Source of the DNA: Prosthecobacter algae
GTDB taxonomy: Bacteria > Verrucomicrobiota > Verrucomicrobiia > Verrucomicrobiales > Verrucomicrobiaceae
Reading direction: 5' to 3'
Length of the DNA: 64,000 bases
Assembly (NCBI RefSeq): GCF_039542385.1
Contig: NZ_BAABIA010000009.1
Location: forward strand, 124,001 to 188,000
Below the pieces are notes generated by a model that was not told the DNA's origin, searched no databases, and saw nothing but the letters and a program-made list of their open reading frames with translations. The position numbers were made by a program, and so were the translations under genes. Of the stretch, positions 11,007-21,058 are shown one piece after another; the stretch's first letter is position 1; each line of letters begins with the position of its first letter.

Positions 11007-14000
11007 TTAAACATCAAAAGTAATCTCAACACAACAACCGCCGCTTGTTGGCGGAAACAAAATTCGTGCACGAAGCTGGTGACTGAGTGACCGCACCAGC
11101 CGAAGCCCTAGAGTGCGCGAGCTCACGGGATCACTGCCAGGAGGCAGCCCATTGCCATCATCCTCCACCTGCAGTTGCATCTGCTTGCCGCCGGTGCGCC
11201 GCAGTGAAATGCGGATGCACCCCATCTCACGTCCCTTGAAGGCATGCTTGAAGGCATTGGTGATGAGCTCGGTGGCGATGAGCCCCAGCGGTATCGCCTT
11301 GTCCAGGTCCAGTTCCACATCATCACACTGGGTCTCCAGCCGAATATGGGTCATGCTGCTCGCCTGACCGCAGGCCATCAGATTGGCCACTTCGCACAGA
11401 TGCGCACCGAAATTGATGGTGGACAGATTGCCTGAGCGATAGAGCCGATCATGTACCATGGCCATGGCATGGATCCGAGTTTGGCAATCTTTGAAGATCG
11501 CTACATCCGCCGGATCATGTAAGGAACTAGTCTGGAGCTGGAGCAGGCTGGAGATGATCTGCATGTTGTTCTTCACCCGGTGATGGATCTCGCGCAGCAG
11601 CACCTCCTTTTCTTCCAAAGACGTTCTGATCTTCTCCGCCGCATTCTTTCGTTCAGTGATGACTTCTGTGAACATCACAATGCCGCCGATTTCCCCGCCC
11701 GCCTCCAGCCAAGGGCGGACCTCCCACCGCAGCCATTCTGTCTGTCCATCCTGGCGAATGAACATGTCCTCATCACGGCTTTCCACGGCCCCTTCCAGGC
11801 AGCGTTGATGAATGGCCTTCCATTCTGGACCGATCTCTGGGAACACCTCATAATGGCTGCGGCCCAAAAGCGGCTGCGCCTGCAGGTGATAGTCTTCCAG
11901 CCATCGTTGACTGGCCGCCACATAGTTCATTTTCAGGTCAAACATGGCCACCGCCGCAGGCGTATGCTCAATGAATTTGCGCAACTGTCCCTGTTGATGC
12001 TTGAGCACCAGGTCTGCCTCATGGCGCTGAGTAATGTCCTCAACCTGCGAAATGAAATAAGCAGGGCTGCCGTCATCTTCCTTCACCAGTGAGGCGGTCA
12101 GCAGCACCCAAACGATATGGCCACCTTTGCGGATGTAGCGCTTTTCCATCTGGTAATGGGTGATTTCGCCACGGATCAGCCTCGTCACATTCTCCAAATC
12201 TTTTTCCAGGTCTTCCGGGTGAGTGATGTCATGAAAGCGCTGCCCTGCCAGCTCCCCCTCCGTGTAGCCCACGATCTCACAAAGCGCACGGTTAACCGCC
12301 ATCCATCCGCCGTCTTGATCCAGTAGGGCAAAACCGATGGCCGAGTATTCAAAGGCATGGCGGAATCTCTCCTCGCTTTCCTGGAGTCTGGCCTCCGCCA
12401 TCACCTGCTTGGTGATGTCCGCATTGGTGCCCAGCATGCGCACAGGCCGGCCTTCCCCATCTTTTTGCACTATGGCCTTCGTCTGAATATAATGGATTGA
12501 ACCGTCTGGCCACACAATCCGAAACACCGTGCTAAAATCCGCACCCCCGCCCAGGGCCAGTTGCAGGGCGGCCACAGCCCCTTCACGGTCATCTTGATGC
12601 ATGCAGTTCTCCCAGATCTGATAGGAGGGTCCACCTTCTGGGCATGAGACTTGGTAGATGCGAAACATCGTTTCATCCCAGACAAGCTTGTTCGTCACCA
12701 CATCCCAGTCCCAGATGCCAATCCCGGAAGCCTGCGTGGCCAAAACCAGACGCTGAGAAATGTTTTCCAGCTTGCCAGTCGCCCGATGATGATCCGTGGC
12801 ATCGCGCCCTTCCGGCACCAGAAAGATCACCTTGCCCGCTTCATCAAAAACCGGACTCAGGGAGAAATCCACAGGTCGCCATTCCCCGGTCGAAGAACGA
12901 TAGACCGTTTGGTAATAGACGGCTTCGCCAGCAGCCGCCTTGGCAATGCTTTCACGTATCCGGGCTTGTTCCCTCTCATCCTGCCGCCACCAGGATACTT
13001 CCCAGAAATGCTTGCCGATGACGTCTTGCGCCGTCAAGCCTGTCGCCTCCAGGGAGGATCGGTTAGCCTCAGTCAGTACGCCGTCTGGGGTCAGCATTCC
13101 TATGAACTGGGAGGTGTTGTTGAAAATGCCACGGAAACGCCGCTCACGTTCCTCCAGACTTCTTGTTGCCCGCCTTTTAGCCATTGCCCGCAGTCTGTCA
13201 GAATGTTGCACCGTCTGCGCATGACGGAGGATCACCAAGATCAGGATCGCCATCGTCATTGTGCAGTAAAAGGCGGCGCCAAACTCCGTCGTGAGAGACC
13301 ATCGCGCCTGAGCCCAGAGGCGCACCAAACCAAAAACAAACGTCACTAGCAGGGCCAGCGGCAGTAGCTGTCGCACCAGCTTGCCCGCCGGACTGCGCGA
13401 CATCAGGATTCTCACCACCCCCTCGTGAGGCCGCAGCAAGGCCAGCCCCATGGAAAGGATCAGCAGGGCCAGCGAAGCCGGCAGGGAAACGATGCCAAAA
13501 ATCAAGTTAGGCCGCTGAGGATCACTGCCATACAGCAGACTCACCAAGGCCAGCCATCCAATCGCCGCCCCCAGGCCCGAAAAGAGGCTGAAAATCTTCT
13601 GCATCCGGCAGCGAACAGTGAGGAGCGCCACCCCAAAAAGCAGCATGCAAACCCCCGAAGCAGGCGATGGGCTGCGCATCCCTTCATGCACCCACGCTGT
13701 CCCTGAGAGTGCACTCATCAATATCCACGACCCCATCCCCAGGGGAATGCAGGCCAGCAACTGGCCCGCAATGCCTAGAGCAGGCCGCCACCTCCTTAAT
13801 TCCGGCCAGCGACTCGCCGAAACAAGAAGCATCGAAATGGCGGCCCCAAACAATCCAACGGCCGTGAGAATTTTCATGCTGGGCCACCCCGTCACCCAGC
13901 TCACCAGCAACGGCTGGCCCTGCCACCAGCCCAGGAACGTCAGACCACAGATGACTCCGGTTAAAAATGTGCAGATCACCACTCCCACACGGGCCGTCCT

Positions 14001-14039
14001 TTTCAATCGTGTCCGGGACAGGAGGTCTGCACAACTCAT
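11007..14039 (-). CDS. membrane multi-PAS sensor histidine kinase (HisKA_2 type)
   Basis: A 1010-residue protein from ATG 14039; a GTG at 14063 would add eight residues, and neither has a clear ribosome-binding site. Roughly residues 15-290 hold about eight membrane-spanning segments. Four PAS domains follow (beginnings near 310, 435, 560 and 685, the later ones with PAC-type DITQR and VITERK ends). The dimerisation helix with HHRVKNNMQ at about residue 819 marks a HisKA_2 kinase, and the ATPase domain shows [12 protein letters not shown] and EDDGNGLP. This kinase type usually signals through a separate receiver protein, and the next gene in the operon encodes one at each end. The membrane part resembles that of the hybrid kinase at 18542. 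The ligand is not predictable. Confidence 0.88.
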
Positions 14040-14143
14040 GAAGTAAACATAGGAACGACACACGTCAGCGCCAACATGAACCTCACCGAAAGCCCGAAAA
14101 ACTCACGGCAGCGGTTCCACACCGACCTTCCATCGCTTAAACT

Positions 14144-14256: not shown

Positions 14257-15171
14257 ATGAACGCCTTTCACCGCCTCACTGCCAGTGACTTGAATGCCTT
14301 GCGCCATGAGGAGCCTAAGCTGGTGATCATGGACGTTCGCCTGTCGGATGACTATGAGCAGCGTGCCATTGAGGGCGCTGTCAACAATTGCGTCTATGAG
14401 GTCGCTTTTCAAAGCCGCCTCACCGATCTAGTTCCCGACCTGCAAACTCCAGTCTGCCTTTATGGGGAGTCGCAGGACAGCCATGAGGCCACAATGGCTG
14501 CCCAGAAATTGCTGCGGGCAGGCTATGCCAGGGTCCTCACACTCCAAGGTTGCCTGGCAGCCTGGACGACCGCCGGACTACCTCTGCAAGGCAACGGAAA
14601 CCAGCCCGAAATTCAACCTCTGCCCGCAGGCCGCCTACCGATTGATGTGACCGAAAGCAAGGTTGAATGGCTGGGCCGCAATCTCCTCAACAAACACTGG
14701 GGCCATCTACCCATCCGCTCAGGCCACCTCGACATTCGTCATGGTGAACTGGCGGGAGGTGAAATCATTCTTGGAATGACGGACATCACCTGCGACGACC
14801 TCGCCGGAAACCCCTATCACGATGTCCTCATCGCCCACCTGCGCAGCGACGACTTTTTTGACACCGAGATTCACCCCGAAGCCCGCCTCAAAATCCTCCA
14901 GGCCAAGCTGGCCCCCAAGGCAGCCCCAGGCACTCAAAACCTTCACATCACCGCCGAACTGACGCTGAAGGGCATCACCGCCCCCATTCAGTTCACCGCC
15001 GCAGCCGGACTGGCAGAAAATGGCCGTTATGCCGCCCAGGCTGCGTTCAGCATTGATCGCACCCGCTGGGGCGTCCTCTACGGCTCCGGCCAATTCTTTC
15101 ACAGACTCGCCGGACATCTGGTCAATGACCTCATCGAAATCCAGGTGCGCATCGTCACCCAGTCAACCTGA
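14257..15171 (+). CDS. rhodanese domain fused to YceI-like lipocalin domain
   Basis: 304 residues. Residues 1-110 form a rhodanese domain, with VIMDVRLSDDYEQRAIEGAVN and an active-site loop beginning with cysteine (VCLYGESQDSHEA) that could carry persulfide. Residues from about 126 to the end form a YceI-like domain (VTESKVEWLGR, SGHLDIRHGELAGGEI, then LHITAELTLKGITAPI), an isoprenoid-binding beta-barrel family. YceI proteins are usually periplasmic, but no signal peptide is present here, so this fusion is probably cytoplasmic. Its stop codon overlaps the start of the downstream lipase gene by one base (TGATG), indicating coupled translation. The combination suggests redox or sulfur stress handling, but no specific function is known. 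Confidence 0.87.
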   Translation: MNAFHRLTASDLNALRHEEPKLVIMDVRLSDDYEQRAIEGAVNNCVYEVAFQSRLTDLVPDLQTPVCLYGESQDSHEATMAAQKLLRAGYARVLTLQGCLAAWTTAGLPLQGNGNQPEIQPLPAGRLPIDVTESKVEWLGRNLLNKHWGHLPIRSGHLDIRHGELAGGEIILGMTDITCDDLAGNPYHDVLIAHLRSDDFFDTEIHPEARLKILQAKLAPKAAPGTQNLHITAELTLKGITAPIQFTAAAGLAENGRYAAQAAFSIDRTRWGVLYGSGQFFHRLAGHLVNDLIEIQVRIVTQST

Positions 15172-16814: not shown

Positions 16815-16844
16815 TTGACACTTTGTGCGACAAAGCATTATACT
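16815..16844 (+). promoter_or_regulatory. strong sigma70-like promoter of the membrane-protein pair
   Basis: A perfect TTGACA at 16815-16820 and TATACT at 16839-16844 are spaced 18 bp. The expected transcription start is near 16851, leaving only about 9 nt before ATG 16860, so the message is almost leaderless and has no Shine-Dalgarno sequence. Both elements are interleaved with two palindromes that probably serve as operators. Confidence 0.75.
16821..16835. promoter_or_regulatory. operator-like palindrome 1 (CTTTGT-N3-ACAAAG)
   Basis: A perfect 6-3-6 inverted repeat CTTTGTGCGACAAAG lying in the spacer between the -35 and -10 elements. An identical pair of arms recurs 22 bp downstream, two helical turns away, on the same face of the DNA. 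A dimeric repressor bound here would occlude RNA polymerase. Its identity is unknown and no regulator gene is adjacent; PadR-like proteins are one possibility. Confidence 0.7.
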
Positions 16845-16857
16845 TTGTCACACAAAG
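16843..16857. promoter_or_regulatory. operator-like palindrome 2 (CTTTGT-N3-ACAAAG)
   Basis: The second perfect 6-3-6 inverted repeat, CTTTGTCACACAAAG, has the same arms as the one at 16821 but a different three-base centre. It overlaps the end of the -10 element and the predicted transcription start, and ends two bases before the ATG at 16860. Equal arms with variable centres at a 22-bp step argue for tandem operator sites rather than RNA hairpins. Confidence 0.7.
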
Positions 16858-16859
16858 CA

Positions 16860-17660
16860 ATGCCAACCAGTCCTGCCATTCATCAACAGCTCAAGACTCT
16901 GGTCCAGGGAGATCCGTTGGTGCTGGCAGATCGCTTAAAGCAGCCAAATGATCGTCTAGCTTCTCGGTTCTTGGTTCTGGCCATCATCGTCGGCTGTGCG
17001 GCCTACGGCTTCGCCATCGGACTTTGGCGCGCGCCTTTGCAGGGAGTCTTTGTTGCCGTCAAGATGCCTGCCCTCATCTTTCTGACCTTGCTGGTGAATG
17101 GCCTCATCAACGGCATGCTGGGACTCCTGCTGGGATCCGGAATGTCCTTCCGCCAGACCCTGCGGGCCTGCCTGATGAGCTTCGCCATTTTCAGCCTCAT
17201 CGTGGGTTCGCTCAGCCCCATCGCCATCGCGGTCGTTCTGGATGCACCGAGGCCCGGAACCCCAGGAGCGGCAGACTGGTATCGGGCCATCCTGCTCACG
17301 CATACCACCATCATCGCGTTTGCTGGCATCGTGGCCAATCATAAGCTACTGCGGCTCATCCAGACGTTCTCCGGCAGCACAGCCACAGGCTGGCACACAC
17401 TCTTCGCCTGGCTGGCGGGCAACCTTTTTGTGGGAGCCCAGCTCTCCTACAACCTCAGGCCATTTTTTGGCAATCCGGACCTGCCCATTCAGTTCCTCAG
17501 GCCGGATCCTTTTGACGGCAGTTTTTATGAATCCGTGGGGCGGCTCGTCCTCGCCTCCATGCCCCAGCAGATCGTCCACCAGCTCGGACCCTGGCTGTTC
17601 CTGCTGCTGGCCTGCCTCGTTTTTCCTAAACTGAGCCGTGCGATCCGCCGCTGGTTATAA
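16860..17660 (+). CDS. multi-spanning membrane protein, Yip1-like, member 1 of a paralogous pair
   Basis: 266 residues from ATG 16860. An upstream TTG at 16803 lies before the promoter and is rejected. About six hydrophobic segments are visible (near 38-58, 68-92, 100-130, 142-165, 180-205 and 242-262). The cytoplasmic N-terminus reads LVQGDPLVLADRL, and the segment after the fifth helix reads LRPFFGNPDLPIQFLRP. It aligns by eye with the next gene product: both have a short N-terminal helix, an LWxxPLK/Q-like loop after the first helix and an LRPxxG motif after the fifth. Similar small membrane proteins are known to me from Planctomycetes and Verrucomicrobia without assigned function; a Yip1-like fold is an inference. 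Expression should be tightly controlled by the tandem palindromes. Confidence 0.8.
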   Translation: MPTSPAIHQQLKTLVQGDPLVLADRLKQPNDRLASRFLVLAIIVGCAAYGFAIGLWRAPLQGVFVAVKMPALIFLTLLVNGLINGMLGLLLGSGMSFRQTLRACLMSFAIFSLIVGSLSPIAIAVVLDAPRPGTPGAADWYRAILLTHTTIIAFAGIVANHKLLRLIQTFSGSTATGWHTLFAWLAGNLFVGAQLSYNLRPFFGNPDLPIQFLRPDPFDGSFYESVGRLVLASMPQQIVHQLGPWLFLLLACLVFPKLSRAIRRWL

Positions 17661-17679
17661 ACCCCATCCTCTTCCTACC

Positions 17680-18414
17680 ATGAATACAGAAGCCACCCCG
17701 CCACCCGCCCCAGTCCCTCCCGCGACTAAAATCACTTCGTCTCTGCACATAGAGCCGATGTCAGGCCCCGTGACACTTCTGAGTGTCATTGAGCACCTGC
17801 TAAAAAACCCCGGACGCATCCTGCACGAATGTCAGCAAGGCCGCCTGCAAGTGCCCGCCCGGTTGCTTCTCAGCACCCTCATTTCATTCAGCATCTTTGG
17901 CCTCCTCCTGGGCAGCTTCTCCGGCGGCACACAGCTCTGGGCCTCGCCCCTGAAAGTCACACTGGGCATCATCGCGGCGGTGCTGATCTGCCTGCCCAGC
18001 CTCTATATCTTCAGCGCGCTTGATGGTCTGGATGCCAGACTCAGCCAGATCTCCGCCGTCATGCTCAGCACCGTCGCTTTGGCCGGCCTGCTACTGCTCG
18101 GTTTCGCCCCGGTGATCTGGGTTTTCAGCACCTCCACAGAGTCCCTCGCCTTCATGGGTTTCCTTGGACTCATCTTCTGGATCATTGGCCTCTACTTCGG
18201 CTCGCGGCTCCTGCTCCAGACCGCCGCTATCCTGGGCATGCAGTCCACCGGATTTCTAAAAACCTGGCTCGCCATTTTCATCATCGTCACCCTCCAGATG
18301 TCCACCTCCCTGCGCCCACTCATCGGCACAGCAGACACCCTGCTGCCCGAGAAAAAGAAATTCTTCCTCCAACACTGGGTGGAAAACCTGGGCCAGGTAG
18401 ACATCAATAGGTAA
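17680..18414 (+). CDS. multi-spanning membrane protein, Yip1-like, member 2 of a paralogous pair
   Basis: 244 residues from ATG 17680, 19 bp after the previous stop. The N-terminal 30 residues are proline-rich and probably disordered (TPPPAPVPPATKI). Five or so membrane segments follow, with the conserved-looking SGGTQLWASPLKVTLG loop after the first and SLRPLIGTADTLL after the last, which match the equivalent positions of the upstream protein. The pair is therefore an old tandem duplication that has diverged strongly, and the products may form a heteromeric membrane complex. Function is unknown. The hybrid kinase gene begins 127 bp downstream on the same strand and could sense or respond to the same stimulus. 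Confidence 0.8.
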   Translation: MNTEATPPPAPVPPATKITSSLHIEPMSGPVTLLSVIEHLLKNPGRILHECQQGRLQVPARLLLSTLISFSIFGLLLGSFSGGTQLWASPLKVTLGIIAAVLICLPSLYIFSALDGLDARLSQISAVMLSTVALAGLLLLGFAPVIWVFSTSTESLAFMGFLGLIFWIIGLYFGSRLLLQTAAILGMQSTGFLKTWLAIFIIVTLQMSTSLRPLIGTADTLLPEKKKFFLQHWVENLGQVDINR

Positions 18415-18541: not shown

Positions 18542-21058
18542 GTGACATCCAAGACGTTGCCGCCATCCCCTGCCCCAAGGGCTGATTCCCCCCTCCCGCT
18601 TGCCGGGCATGTGTGTGGCATCATTGTTCATGTCGTCAGCGCGGTGGTCCTGATGATTGGCCTGAGCAATCTGGCCGTCTGGTGGATACCGTCCCTGCAA
18701 TTTGTCGCGAGTTGGCCAGGAGCCATGTTCACGCGGGCAAACACGGCGCTGGCCCTCAGTGCTGGGGCTCTTTCATTGCTGCTTTGGCATCACGCGGGGA
18801 GACCCGCCAAACTAAATAGACAGCAGTTGGCTGCCAGTCTATTGGGAGCTATCCCCGCATTGATCGGGGGACTGACTTCTCTAGAATACTTTTCAGGCAT
18901 CAACCTGGGGGTGGATACATTGCTGGCAGCCGCCACTTTTCCCGGAGATCACGCCAACAACCATGTGGTCGCCCCGGGAAGAATGAGCCTCAATGCGGCG
19001 CTGTCTCTGTTTTTTCTGGGCGTTTCGCTCTGCGGGCTGGACTGGACGATTCATATTGGTCGCCCTCGCAGCATCTTCATTGCGCCCATCCTGGCGGTTA
19101 TGTCCGCGCTTCCGGCCTGCTTTGGCCTGGTGGGCTATCTCTCCGGCACAGGTGGCTTCACCGGCCTCCTCAAATCCACCAATCTGCTGCTGCATGCAGC
19201 GGTGGCTCTCGTGATGCTGGCCGTAGGCGTTCTGGCGGTTCGCGGTGAACGCCAGCCGGTAAGGCGCATTCTGTCACAGGGGGCGGGTGGCATGCTGCTA
19301 CGCTGGCTGCTTCCCGGCGCCACGGCATCTCTCATCCTCCTCGCCTGGTTGATTGGCAAAGCCCGGGCCTACGCCCATGTGGCTCCAGGTGAGGGCACGG
19401 CGCTCATGCTCTTTGGCGGGCTCATTCTCCTCTATGCCCTCATCGTCTCTGCCAGCCGCGCCGTGGATGTCCAGGAGGCCCGCGCCCAGCGTGCCAAGTC
19501 CGCCCTGCATGAAGAGGAACTCCGCAGCCGTTCCATCTTGGCGACTTCGCTGGATGGCGTCCTTCTCATGGACATGAATGGGCGGGTAAGAGACTGGAAC
19601 CAGGCCGCCGAACGCATCTTTGGCTGGCGACCTGAGGAAATTGTGGGCCAGATGCTGGCGGACCACATCATTCCAGAAAGACTGCGAGCCGCCCACAATC
19701 AGGGCCTGAAAAATTACCTGATCACCGGATCAGGTCCCGTGCTCGGCAAGCGGCTGGAACTTCCCGCCCTGCGCCGGGATGGCACCGAATTTCCCGTGGA
19801 ACTCAGCATCAATGCCGTCACGGATGCAGAGCCGCCCCTTTTTGTCGGTTTCATCCGGGACATTACGGAACGTCAAAAGGCTGAACAAGCCCTTCGGGAA
19901 GCCAAAGAACTGGCCGAAAAAGCCAGCCAGGCCAAAGATGACTTCCTCGCAGCCCTCTCCCACGAACTGCGCACACCGCTGACGCCAGTACTCCTCAGCG
20001 CCTCCGTTCTCAGTGAAGACCCACGCCTGCCCGAAGATGTGCGCCGCACGCTGGGCATGATCGAACGGCACGTTACTCTTGAGGCACGCCTCATCGACGA
20101 TCTGCTGGACCTCACACGCATCTCACGCGGCAAGCTGCACCTCCGCAAAGAGATTTGCGATCTGGAAACGCTCATTCATCACGCCGTCGAAATCATCAAA
20201 GAAGACGCGGCGGCAAAAAACCTCACCCTACGGCTGCGGCTCACCTCAGCAGCCCCTCGGCTGGCAGGAGATTCCGCCAGGCTTCAGCAGGTGTTTTGGA
20301 ATCTCCTCAAAAATGCGGTGAAGTTCACCCCTCATTCAGGGACCATCACGATCAGTACTTCCACAGACGAGCTTCAAAAGTTAGCCCAGATTACTGTGCA
20401 GGATACTGGCGTCGGCTTTGACCCAGCTAGGGCCGACCAGCTTTTCCTACCCTTTGAACAGGAAAAACCCGGCACCCAGCACCAGTTTGGCGGTCTTGGG
20501 CTGGGGCTGGCCATTGCTCGCGCCATCGTCAGCCTCCACGGAGGTAGCATCGCCGCAGCGAGCGAAGGCCCCGGCCAGGGAGCAACATTCATCGTCACCT
20601 TGCCCTTTGGCATTCTCACGGAAGAGGATCCCCCCTTGGAACCTACAGCCTTGGCCAATGGGCAGATAGCCAAACAAGTCCTGCAGATCCTTCTGGTGGA
20701 AGATCACGAACACACCCGCCAGGTGCTGGCACACCTGCTCCAGCGCTCGGGCCATCGCGTGCAGTGCGCTAGCAATGTGGAAGAAGCTCTCGGCATGGCT
20801 GACTCCGCCACCCATCGCTTTGACATTCTCATCTCCGACCTCGGACTGCCCGATGGTTCAGGCCTCGACCTCATGCAGCAACTGCGCAACCGAGGCCACA
20901 CCCTGCCAGGCATTGCCCTATCCGGCTACGGTATGGAGGAAGATCATCTCCGCACCCGTGAAGCCGGTTTTGCCTGCCACTTGGTAAAACCAGTCAAATT
21001 TGAACAACTGACCCAAGCTCTCTGTAGTTTCAAAATAGGCGAGGGGCCGAATATCTAA
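18542..21058 (+). CDS. membrane hybrid histidine kinase (membrane sensor-PAS-HisKA-ATPase-receiver)
   Basis: 838 residues from GTG 18542; the frame closes just upstream at 18527 and nearby ATGs are out of frame. Residues 20-310 hold about eight membrane segments, resembling the sensor part of the kinase at 11007-14039. A PAS domain (about 325-445, ending FIRDITERQK) leads into a HisKA helix with H474 in SHELRTPL, then an ATPase domain (FWNLLKNAVKF, GLGLGLAIARA). The C-terminal receiver (about 712-830) has phospho-acceptor D766 and a lysine in the VKP motif. With no DNA-binding output, signal must pass to a separate phosphotransfer or response protein. The gene follows the paralogous membrane pair. 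Confidence 0.88.
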   Translation: MTSKTLPPSPAPRADSPLPLAGHVCGIIVHVVSAVVLMIGLSNLAVWWIPSLQFVASWPGAMFTRANTALALSAGALSLLLWHHAGRPAKLNRQQLAASLLGAIPALIGGLTSLEYFSGINLGVDTLLAAATFPGDHANNHVVAPGRMSLNAALSLFFLGVSLCGLDWTIHIGRPRSIFIAPILAVMSALPACFGLVGYLSGTGGFTGLLKSTNLLLHAAVALVMLAVGVLAVRGERQPVRRILSQGAGGMLLRWLLPGATASLILLAWLIGKARAYAHVAPGEGTALMLFGGLILLYALIVSASRAVDVQEARAQRAKSALHEEELRSRSILATSLDGVLLMDMNGRVRDWNQAAERIFGWRPEEIVGQMLADHIIPERLRAAHNQGLKNYLITGSGPVLGKRLELPALRRDGTEFPVELSINAVTDAEPPLFVGFIRDITERQKAEQALREAKELAEKASQAKDDFLAALSHELRTPLTPVLLSASVLSEDPRLPEDVRRTLGMIERHVTLEARLIDDLLDLTRISRGKLHLRKEICDLETLIHHAVEIIKEDAAAKNLTLRLRLTSAAPRLAGDSARLQQVFWNLLKNAVKFTPHSGTITISTSTDELQKLAQITVQDTGVGFDPARADQLFLPFEQEKPGTQHQFGGLGLGLAIARAIVSLHGGSIAAASEGPGQGATFIVTLPFGILTEEDPPLEPTALANGQIAKQVLQILLVEDHEHTRQVLAHLLQRSGHRVQCASNVEEALGMADSATHRFDILISDLGLPDGSGLDLMQQLRNRGHTLPGIALSGYGMEEDHLRTREAGFACHLVKPVKFEQLTQALCSFKIGEGPNI

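Follow-up and report, generated by a model that had tools for sequence, protein, structure and literature searches.

Two perfect palindromes that overlap the promoter of a membrane protein gene pair, P1-P2, in Prosthecobacter algae are very probably the operators of an HTH_34 autorepressor that would occlude the P1 promoter, with P1-P2 as an outlying target in a regulon of few members. The palindromes lie in a stretch of 64,000 nucleotides that was analyzed as a whole (hereafter the window), and the candidate regulator gene lies at a second locus in the same genome. The operator pair appears to be real and conserved, and sequence comparison allows its most likely regulator to be named. A promoter motif without an assigned regulator is thereby converted into a candidate regulator-operator pair of the HTH_34 winged-helix family that lends itself to testing, and a second IspH isozyme is linked, in many Verrucomicrobiota, with membrane proteins of families without names.

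The window contains, as the initial annotation had claimed, two perfect CTTTGT-N3-ACAAAG palindromes with a step of 22 bp from start to start, which we designate putative operator 1 (CTTTGTGCGACAAAG, 16821-16835) and putative operator 2 (CTTTGTCACACAAAG, 16843-16857). They are the only exact copies of this pattern in the 6.12-Mb genome, in which a reversed control pattern is found 0 times. With two mismatches allowed, the window holds three palindrome matches, an unremarkable number that 24 of 100 shuffles also reach; what is distinctive about the palindromes is the exact pair and its conservation, not the two-mismatch count in the window. A promoter scan places a near-consensus promoter over the pair on the plus strand, with a -35 hexamer TTGACA (16815-16820) and a -10 hexamer TATACT (16839-16844) that span 16815-16844 with an 18-bp spacer and agree with the consensus at 11 of 12 positions. 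Operator 1 falls within this spacer, while the last two bases of the -10 hexamer are the first two of operator 2, which ends two bases before the ATG of P1 and would cover the transcription start as positioned from the promoter match. The same match would make the P1 mRNA near-leaderless. The proposed interlocking of promoter and palindromes is upheld by the match and its overlap, but the promoter match by itself is modest evidence, because the 2.3-kb region contains two promoter-like matches compared with 0.7 in shuffled sequences. An artificial operator pair searched for in E. coli genomes gave 0 matches. On the opposite strand, a second promoter match (TTGGCA/TATAAT, 11 of 12 positions, 16837-16866, minus strand) points into the upstream hydrolase-like gene; its -35 lies within P1 coding bases, and this hexamer is absent from the sequence of the relative L004.

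P1 (16860-17660, plus strand, ATG at 16860) encodes a 266-aa multi-helix membrane protein of a family without a name, and P2 (17680-18414, plus strand, ATG at 17680), which follows after a gap of 19 bp, encodes a 244-aa multi-helix membrane protein that is a distant relative of P1. The earlier description of the two as paralogous finds weak support in a profile-profile comparison (probability 88.8%, E = 2.5e-6 over 162 columns). When 13 P1 and 12 P2 members were compared with Pfam, none scored above the gathering score and no family matched more than one member (best E-values of 0.72 among P1 members and 0.019 among P2 members); an NCBIfam scan of P1 and P2 gave nothing usable, and a profile search of PDB sequences, done for P1 only, returned no match up to an E-value of 1. 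The AlphaFold models of P1 and P2 are helical, with mean pLDDT values of 84.0 and 74.9, respectively. Their fold matches in the PDB are weak and typical of helical bundles, and were set aside: for P1 the best Foldseek E-value is 1.3 and the best VIA-align Z is 6.0 (rmsd 4.5 over 139 residues), and for P2 the best VIA-align Z is 6.1 (rmsd 11.2 over 113 residues). Upstream of P1 are genes for a rhodanese-YceI fusion and for a hydrolase-like protein that falls below the Pfam cut-off, and downstream of P2 is a hybrid histidine kinase. A Pfam scan of these neighbors bears out the remark that no regulator gene is adjacent, as far as DNA-binding regulators are concerned, and the kinases near P1-P2 were rejected as the regulator since the scan finds no DNA-binding domain in them. 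The rhodanese domain and the YceI-like domain are joined in a single protein (14257-15168, plus strand). The region is flanked by a pair of large PAS histidine kinases (11007-14063, minus strand, and 18542-21058, plus strand); the N-terminus is hydrophobic in both, and the second carries a C-terminal receiver domain.

Conservation of the palindromes was followed in two overlapping sets, some assemblies surely being the same in both: 56 genomes, our own included, of which 14 have a P1 match, and a scan of named genomes that provided 80 P1 loci, these being the best of 132 and mostly from Verrucomicrobiota. The operator reading survives this comparison upstream of orthologues, with patchy conservation. 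A perfect (10/10) CTTTG-N5-CAAAG site lies within about 350 bp upstream of P1 in 19 of the best 80 of 132 loci and a 9/10 site in two further ones, whereas 40 of the same best 80 of 132 have neither an upstream site nor a regulator gene in the locus. The double site is kept in close relatives; the 22-bp pair recurs in four of them (L004, L005, L006 and L090), each with TTGACA or TTGACG directly before operator 1. Elsewhere there is a single site (L007), a pair 17 bp apart (L011 and L012) or a pair 68 bp apart (L013), and L008, L009, L010, L014, L015 and L016 have no site before P1. The spacing of paired sites varies: it is 22 bp in the window, 33-35 bp in front of the regulator operon in relatives, and 17 or 68 bp upstream of some other P1 genes. 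The repressor might bind cooperatively, as the initial annotation proposed. In a scan of 13,312 combinations of arm and spacer over 69 non-redundant upstream sequences, drawn from 80 (79 loci and the window), the CTTTG-N5 palindrome ranked first with 16 of 69; an overlapping extension reached 10, a sub-pattern 4, and the next combination 3 or fewer.

We consider it extremely unlikely that the sites reflect chance, or conservation by recent common descent only. Close relatives do not provide independent sites, and the test on independent pairs described below is not significant alone; however, perfect sites with different centers stand upstream of P1 proteins that are only 48-56% identical to that of the window, and across the 80 loci (581,510 bases) the CTTTG arms give 70 sites compared with 0 to 9 for each of 19 other arms with identical composition. 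Of these 70 sites, the 19 loci that have an operator before P1 account for 26, the 21 regulator-gene loci for 41, and the other 40 loci for 3. The pattern of conservation also bears on the notion that the repeats work at the RNA level or as hairpins in DNA, in the manner of an attenuator, a terminator or a recombination site. Hairpin formation is possible for perfect palindromes, but transcription from the inferred start would leave out palindrome 1, which is upstream of it, the arms are kept as the sequence CTTTG/CAAAG and not for pairing alone while the centers vary, and the sites recur before three different operons, which makes this a very improbable role. In the tree, the P1 of a record titled Planctomycetaceae (L099) is nested among Verrucomicrobiaceae, pointing to a misbinned contig or a transfer.

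A relaxed palindrome search of the genome, which returned eight sites, led to contig C11, where the genes for a membrane protein, MEMB (219 aa), a 100-aa winged-helix protein and IspH follow one another in this order. The MEMB and winged-helix genes overlap by 4 bases, and sites are located upstream of MEMB and in the interval that separates the winged-helix gene from ispH. Matches to ACTTTGYNNNRCAAAGT with no or one mismatch number five in the genome, two at P1 and three around the MEMB-winged-helix/ispH locus; the 34 sites with two mismatches look like background, the total of 39 comparing with 55 for a reversed control that is not split by mismatch. The winged-helix protein (C11:102425-102724, minus strand) matches HTH_34 (PF13601) with an E-value of 1.2e-21 and 77.1 bits against a cut-off of 27. 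The genome has three HTH_34 matches, of which two are above the cut-off, the second being at C11:30030, and only that at 102425-102724 is strong. By sequence, the nearest solved relative is the HTH_34 protein PH1061 (PDB 1UB9), which matches residues 14-95 of the regulator (E = 2.6e-6). An identity as an ArsR/SmtB metalloregulator was rejected, since the protein scores 34.8 bits against a cut-off of 55 on the NCBIfam model HTH_metalloreg and an alignment of 16 regulators has no cysteine among its invariant or nearly invariant columns. A Pfam scan of two MEMB proteins gave no family above the cut-off, and hence no known membrane partner family, and MEMB shows no relationship to P1 or P2 when compared with them.

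Across the 56 genomes, our own included, the regulator is matched in 39, and ACTTTGN5CAAAGT sites number 78 compared with 9 for the reversed control. A strong regulator match and the motif are both present in 33 genomes and both absent in 17, so that 50 of 56 are concordant (Fisher p = 1e-8, uncorrected for kinship, with the weak regulator matches in G006, G044 and G052 scored as absent). Among the six discordant genomes, three (G010, G045 and G047) have the regulator together with CTTTG-N5-CAAAG sites whose outer bases differ, two (G003 and G039) carry one site each, with an off-consensus center, and G034, an incomplete assembly (87% complete), has a P1 operator pair and no strong regulator match. 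Thirty regulator loci were fetched, and 29 could be located by sequence pattern. A perfect site lies upstream of MEMB, that is, of the regulator operon, in 27 of the 27 loci with enough upstream sequence; 24 of those 27 have a second site (9 or 10 of 10) at a distance of 33-35 bp, and all 29 located loci have a perfect site between the regulator and ispH.

Co-location and co-occurrence thus make the HTH_34 protein a strong candidate for the regulator that would recognize the palindromes. The initial annotation had regarded both the repressor and the function of the proteins as not known; the regulator gene found to co-occur with the motif, that of HTH_34 (PF13601), supplies a named candidate for the former. 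It is unlikely, in our estimation, that the sites are operators of a different, unlinked regulator and that the HTH_34 gene is merely another of its targets. Motif co-location does not distinguish a regulator from a co-regulated gene, G034 has operators and no strong HTH_34 match, and the genome holds the further HTH_34 match above the cut-off at C11:30030. Against this, every testable relative has sites on both sides of the HTH_34 operon, regulator and motif agree in all but six genomes, and autoregulation by the encoded winged-helix protein is the simplest reading.

The regulator and P1-P2 are also found side by side. Among the P1 loci (best 80 of 132), 21 hold a winged-helix gene, 23 an ispH and 17 a MEMB gene; those with the winged-helix gene mostly have ispH as well, the commonest order being site-MEMB-winged helix-site-ispH-P1-P2. 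One group of loci adds DUF1361 and two membrane-like proteins without a family name, and in L151 and L160 the regulator genes are downstream of P1-P2. All 21 P1 loci with a winged-helix gene have at least one perfect site, and 19 have two or more. The gene preceding the regulator is MEMB in our genome, and likewise in 16 of the 21 P1 loci with a regulator; the L166 locus starts inside the regulator gene, and L146 has another open frame before it. The latter locus, from Pontiellaceae (L146:1479-6771), combines two perfect sites with the regulator, P2 and two consecutive genes of P1 type.

At the level of whole genomes, a strong regulator is present in 18 of 19 genomes with an operator before P1 as compared with 9 of 31 without one (Fisher p = 3.6e-6, uncorrected for kinship). 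This test covers 50 of the 80 genomes, includes near-duplicate rows such as L090 and L091, and scores weak matches as absent (four of the 22 operator-less genomes counted as lacking the regulator, and the sole exception among the 19). When the operator label is mapped on a quickly built tree of 79 P1 rows, 10 changes are required; of seven independent pairs, about 4.8 differ in the expected way, 0.1 in the opposite way and 2.0 show no difference, giving a phylogeny-corrected median p of 0.0625, which has the same direction and is not significant alone. The 22 of 31 operator-less P1 genomes without a strong regulator match (four of them with weak matches) indicate that P1-P2 is not dependent on the regulator. 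Conversely, 9 of the 31 lack the operator before P1 despite a strong regulator match, including the close relatives L008 and L009 (the same as L096 and L095). Many P1-P2 pairs, including an Akkermansiaceae group with a thiG-like neighbor and the pairs of sulfur bacteria, have no operator, and the genomes tested among them have no strong regulator match, with the one exception of Venteria; we conclude that P1-P2 has a use of its own. It seems that P1-P2 has been drawn into the regulon, or lost from it, more than once. Inspection by eye of the P1-P2 neighbors at five loci of sulfur bacteria and their kin revealed no common gene.

The window's own genome, the only one for which this count was made, has two IspH genes of different types (C1:838685-839710, also L264, and L024:3511-4356). 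The IspH of the regulon is a second isozyme; it is short, and the other genomic copy has a long N-terminal extension. With 237.1 bits on IspH/LytB (PF02401), where the cut-off is 24.5, the regulon IspH belongs to the family, and it keeps the motifs GMCFGV, HNPVV, AHG, TSCPL, QTT, DTVC and NSNNT. The cysteines of GMCFGV, TSCPL and DTVC, which we take to be the three cluster ligands, are all present. The IspH proteins of the 23 P1 loci share 43-53% identity with the C11 copy compared with 24-37% with the other copy, showing that the IspH of the regulon forms a distinct and consistent line in these P1 loci.

In the mechanism that we propose, a dimer of the HTH_34 protein would bind each CTTTG(T/C)-N3-(A/G)CAAAG site. 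At the P1 promoter, one bound site would lie between the -35 and -10 hexamers and the other over the inferred start, positions at which the bound protein would keep RNA polymerase off. Repression by the HTH_34 protein would extend to its own operon, where its gene comes second after MEMB, and to the adjoining second IspH isozyme, with P1-P2 as a satellite operon of the regulon here; in other Verrucomicrobiota, P1-P2 is often directly downstream of the regulator and ispH. We favor autorepression because of the sites in the spacer and over the start, the near-consensus hexamers, and the sites before the regulator's own operon. The alternative that the HTH_34 protein activates, or acts as a switch, instead of repressing appears quite improbable: although some winged-helix proteins activate transcription, and a twin site on a promoter could also serve an activator that remodels the spacer, the sites occupy the spacer and the inferred start, hexamers so close to consensus need no activator, and four relatives share the layout. 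With the HTH_34 protein as a repressor that has no added sensor domain, the signal probably enters via MEMB or a small ligand, since a regulator of ~100 aa without a conserved cysteine must leave the signal to a partner or ligand. Release from the sites would then cause MEMB, the repressor, the second IspH and P1-P2 to be made together. If true, this would give P1-P2 its first functional context and offer a starting point for understanding why two IspH enzymes are retained in such bacteria.

This type of switch is familiar. SdpI sequesters SdpR at the membrane. As in SdpRI, the gene for a small winged-helix protein, here a putative repressor, shares one operon with the gene for an integral membrane protein, and by this likeness MEMB is a candidate sensor; the sdpRI genes of Bacillus subtilis are described as encoding their own repressor and a membrane anti-toxin (PMC6818787). 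The present system differs from SdpRI in that MEMB has no Pfam family, the regulon adds IspH and P1-P2, and the regulator scores 16.3 against 100 bits on the repress_SdpR model, on which grounds membership of the SdpR family was rejected. In the literature searched on HTH_34, PF13601 and PH1061, no operator or regulon is described for the HTH_34 family, nor did we find in the literature searched a description of the palindrome motif, the regulon, the link to a second IspH or the P1-P2 family.

An envelope or isoprenoid role for P1-P2 is a guess from IspH and the occasional CreD targets. As a tentative and rather doubtful extension, the system might be a stress switch for the membrane or isoprenoid supply, in which MEMB would sense the state of the membrane or of the lipid carrier and hold or free the HTH_34 protein, and a backup IspH and a P1-P2 complex (in some lineages DUF1361 or CreD) would be brought in upon failure of the envelope or of the housekeeping IspH. 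CreD is linked to envelope integrity (PMC4689548). It was rejected as a core member of the regulon, with a site at 1 of 30 CreD (PF06123) loci from a sample of the phylum, and the window's genome has no CreD match. Perfect sites do lie upstream of creD in two relatives (L170:3234-3283 and L237:1442), which indicates that creD can join the regulon. Perfect sites were also seen before other open frames of ~200 aa that resemble membrane proteins (L174:3128 and L177:2057), and these are possibly further members of the regulon.
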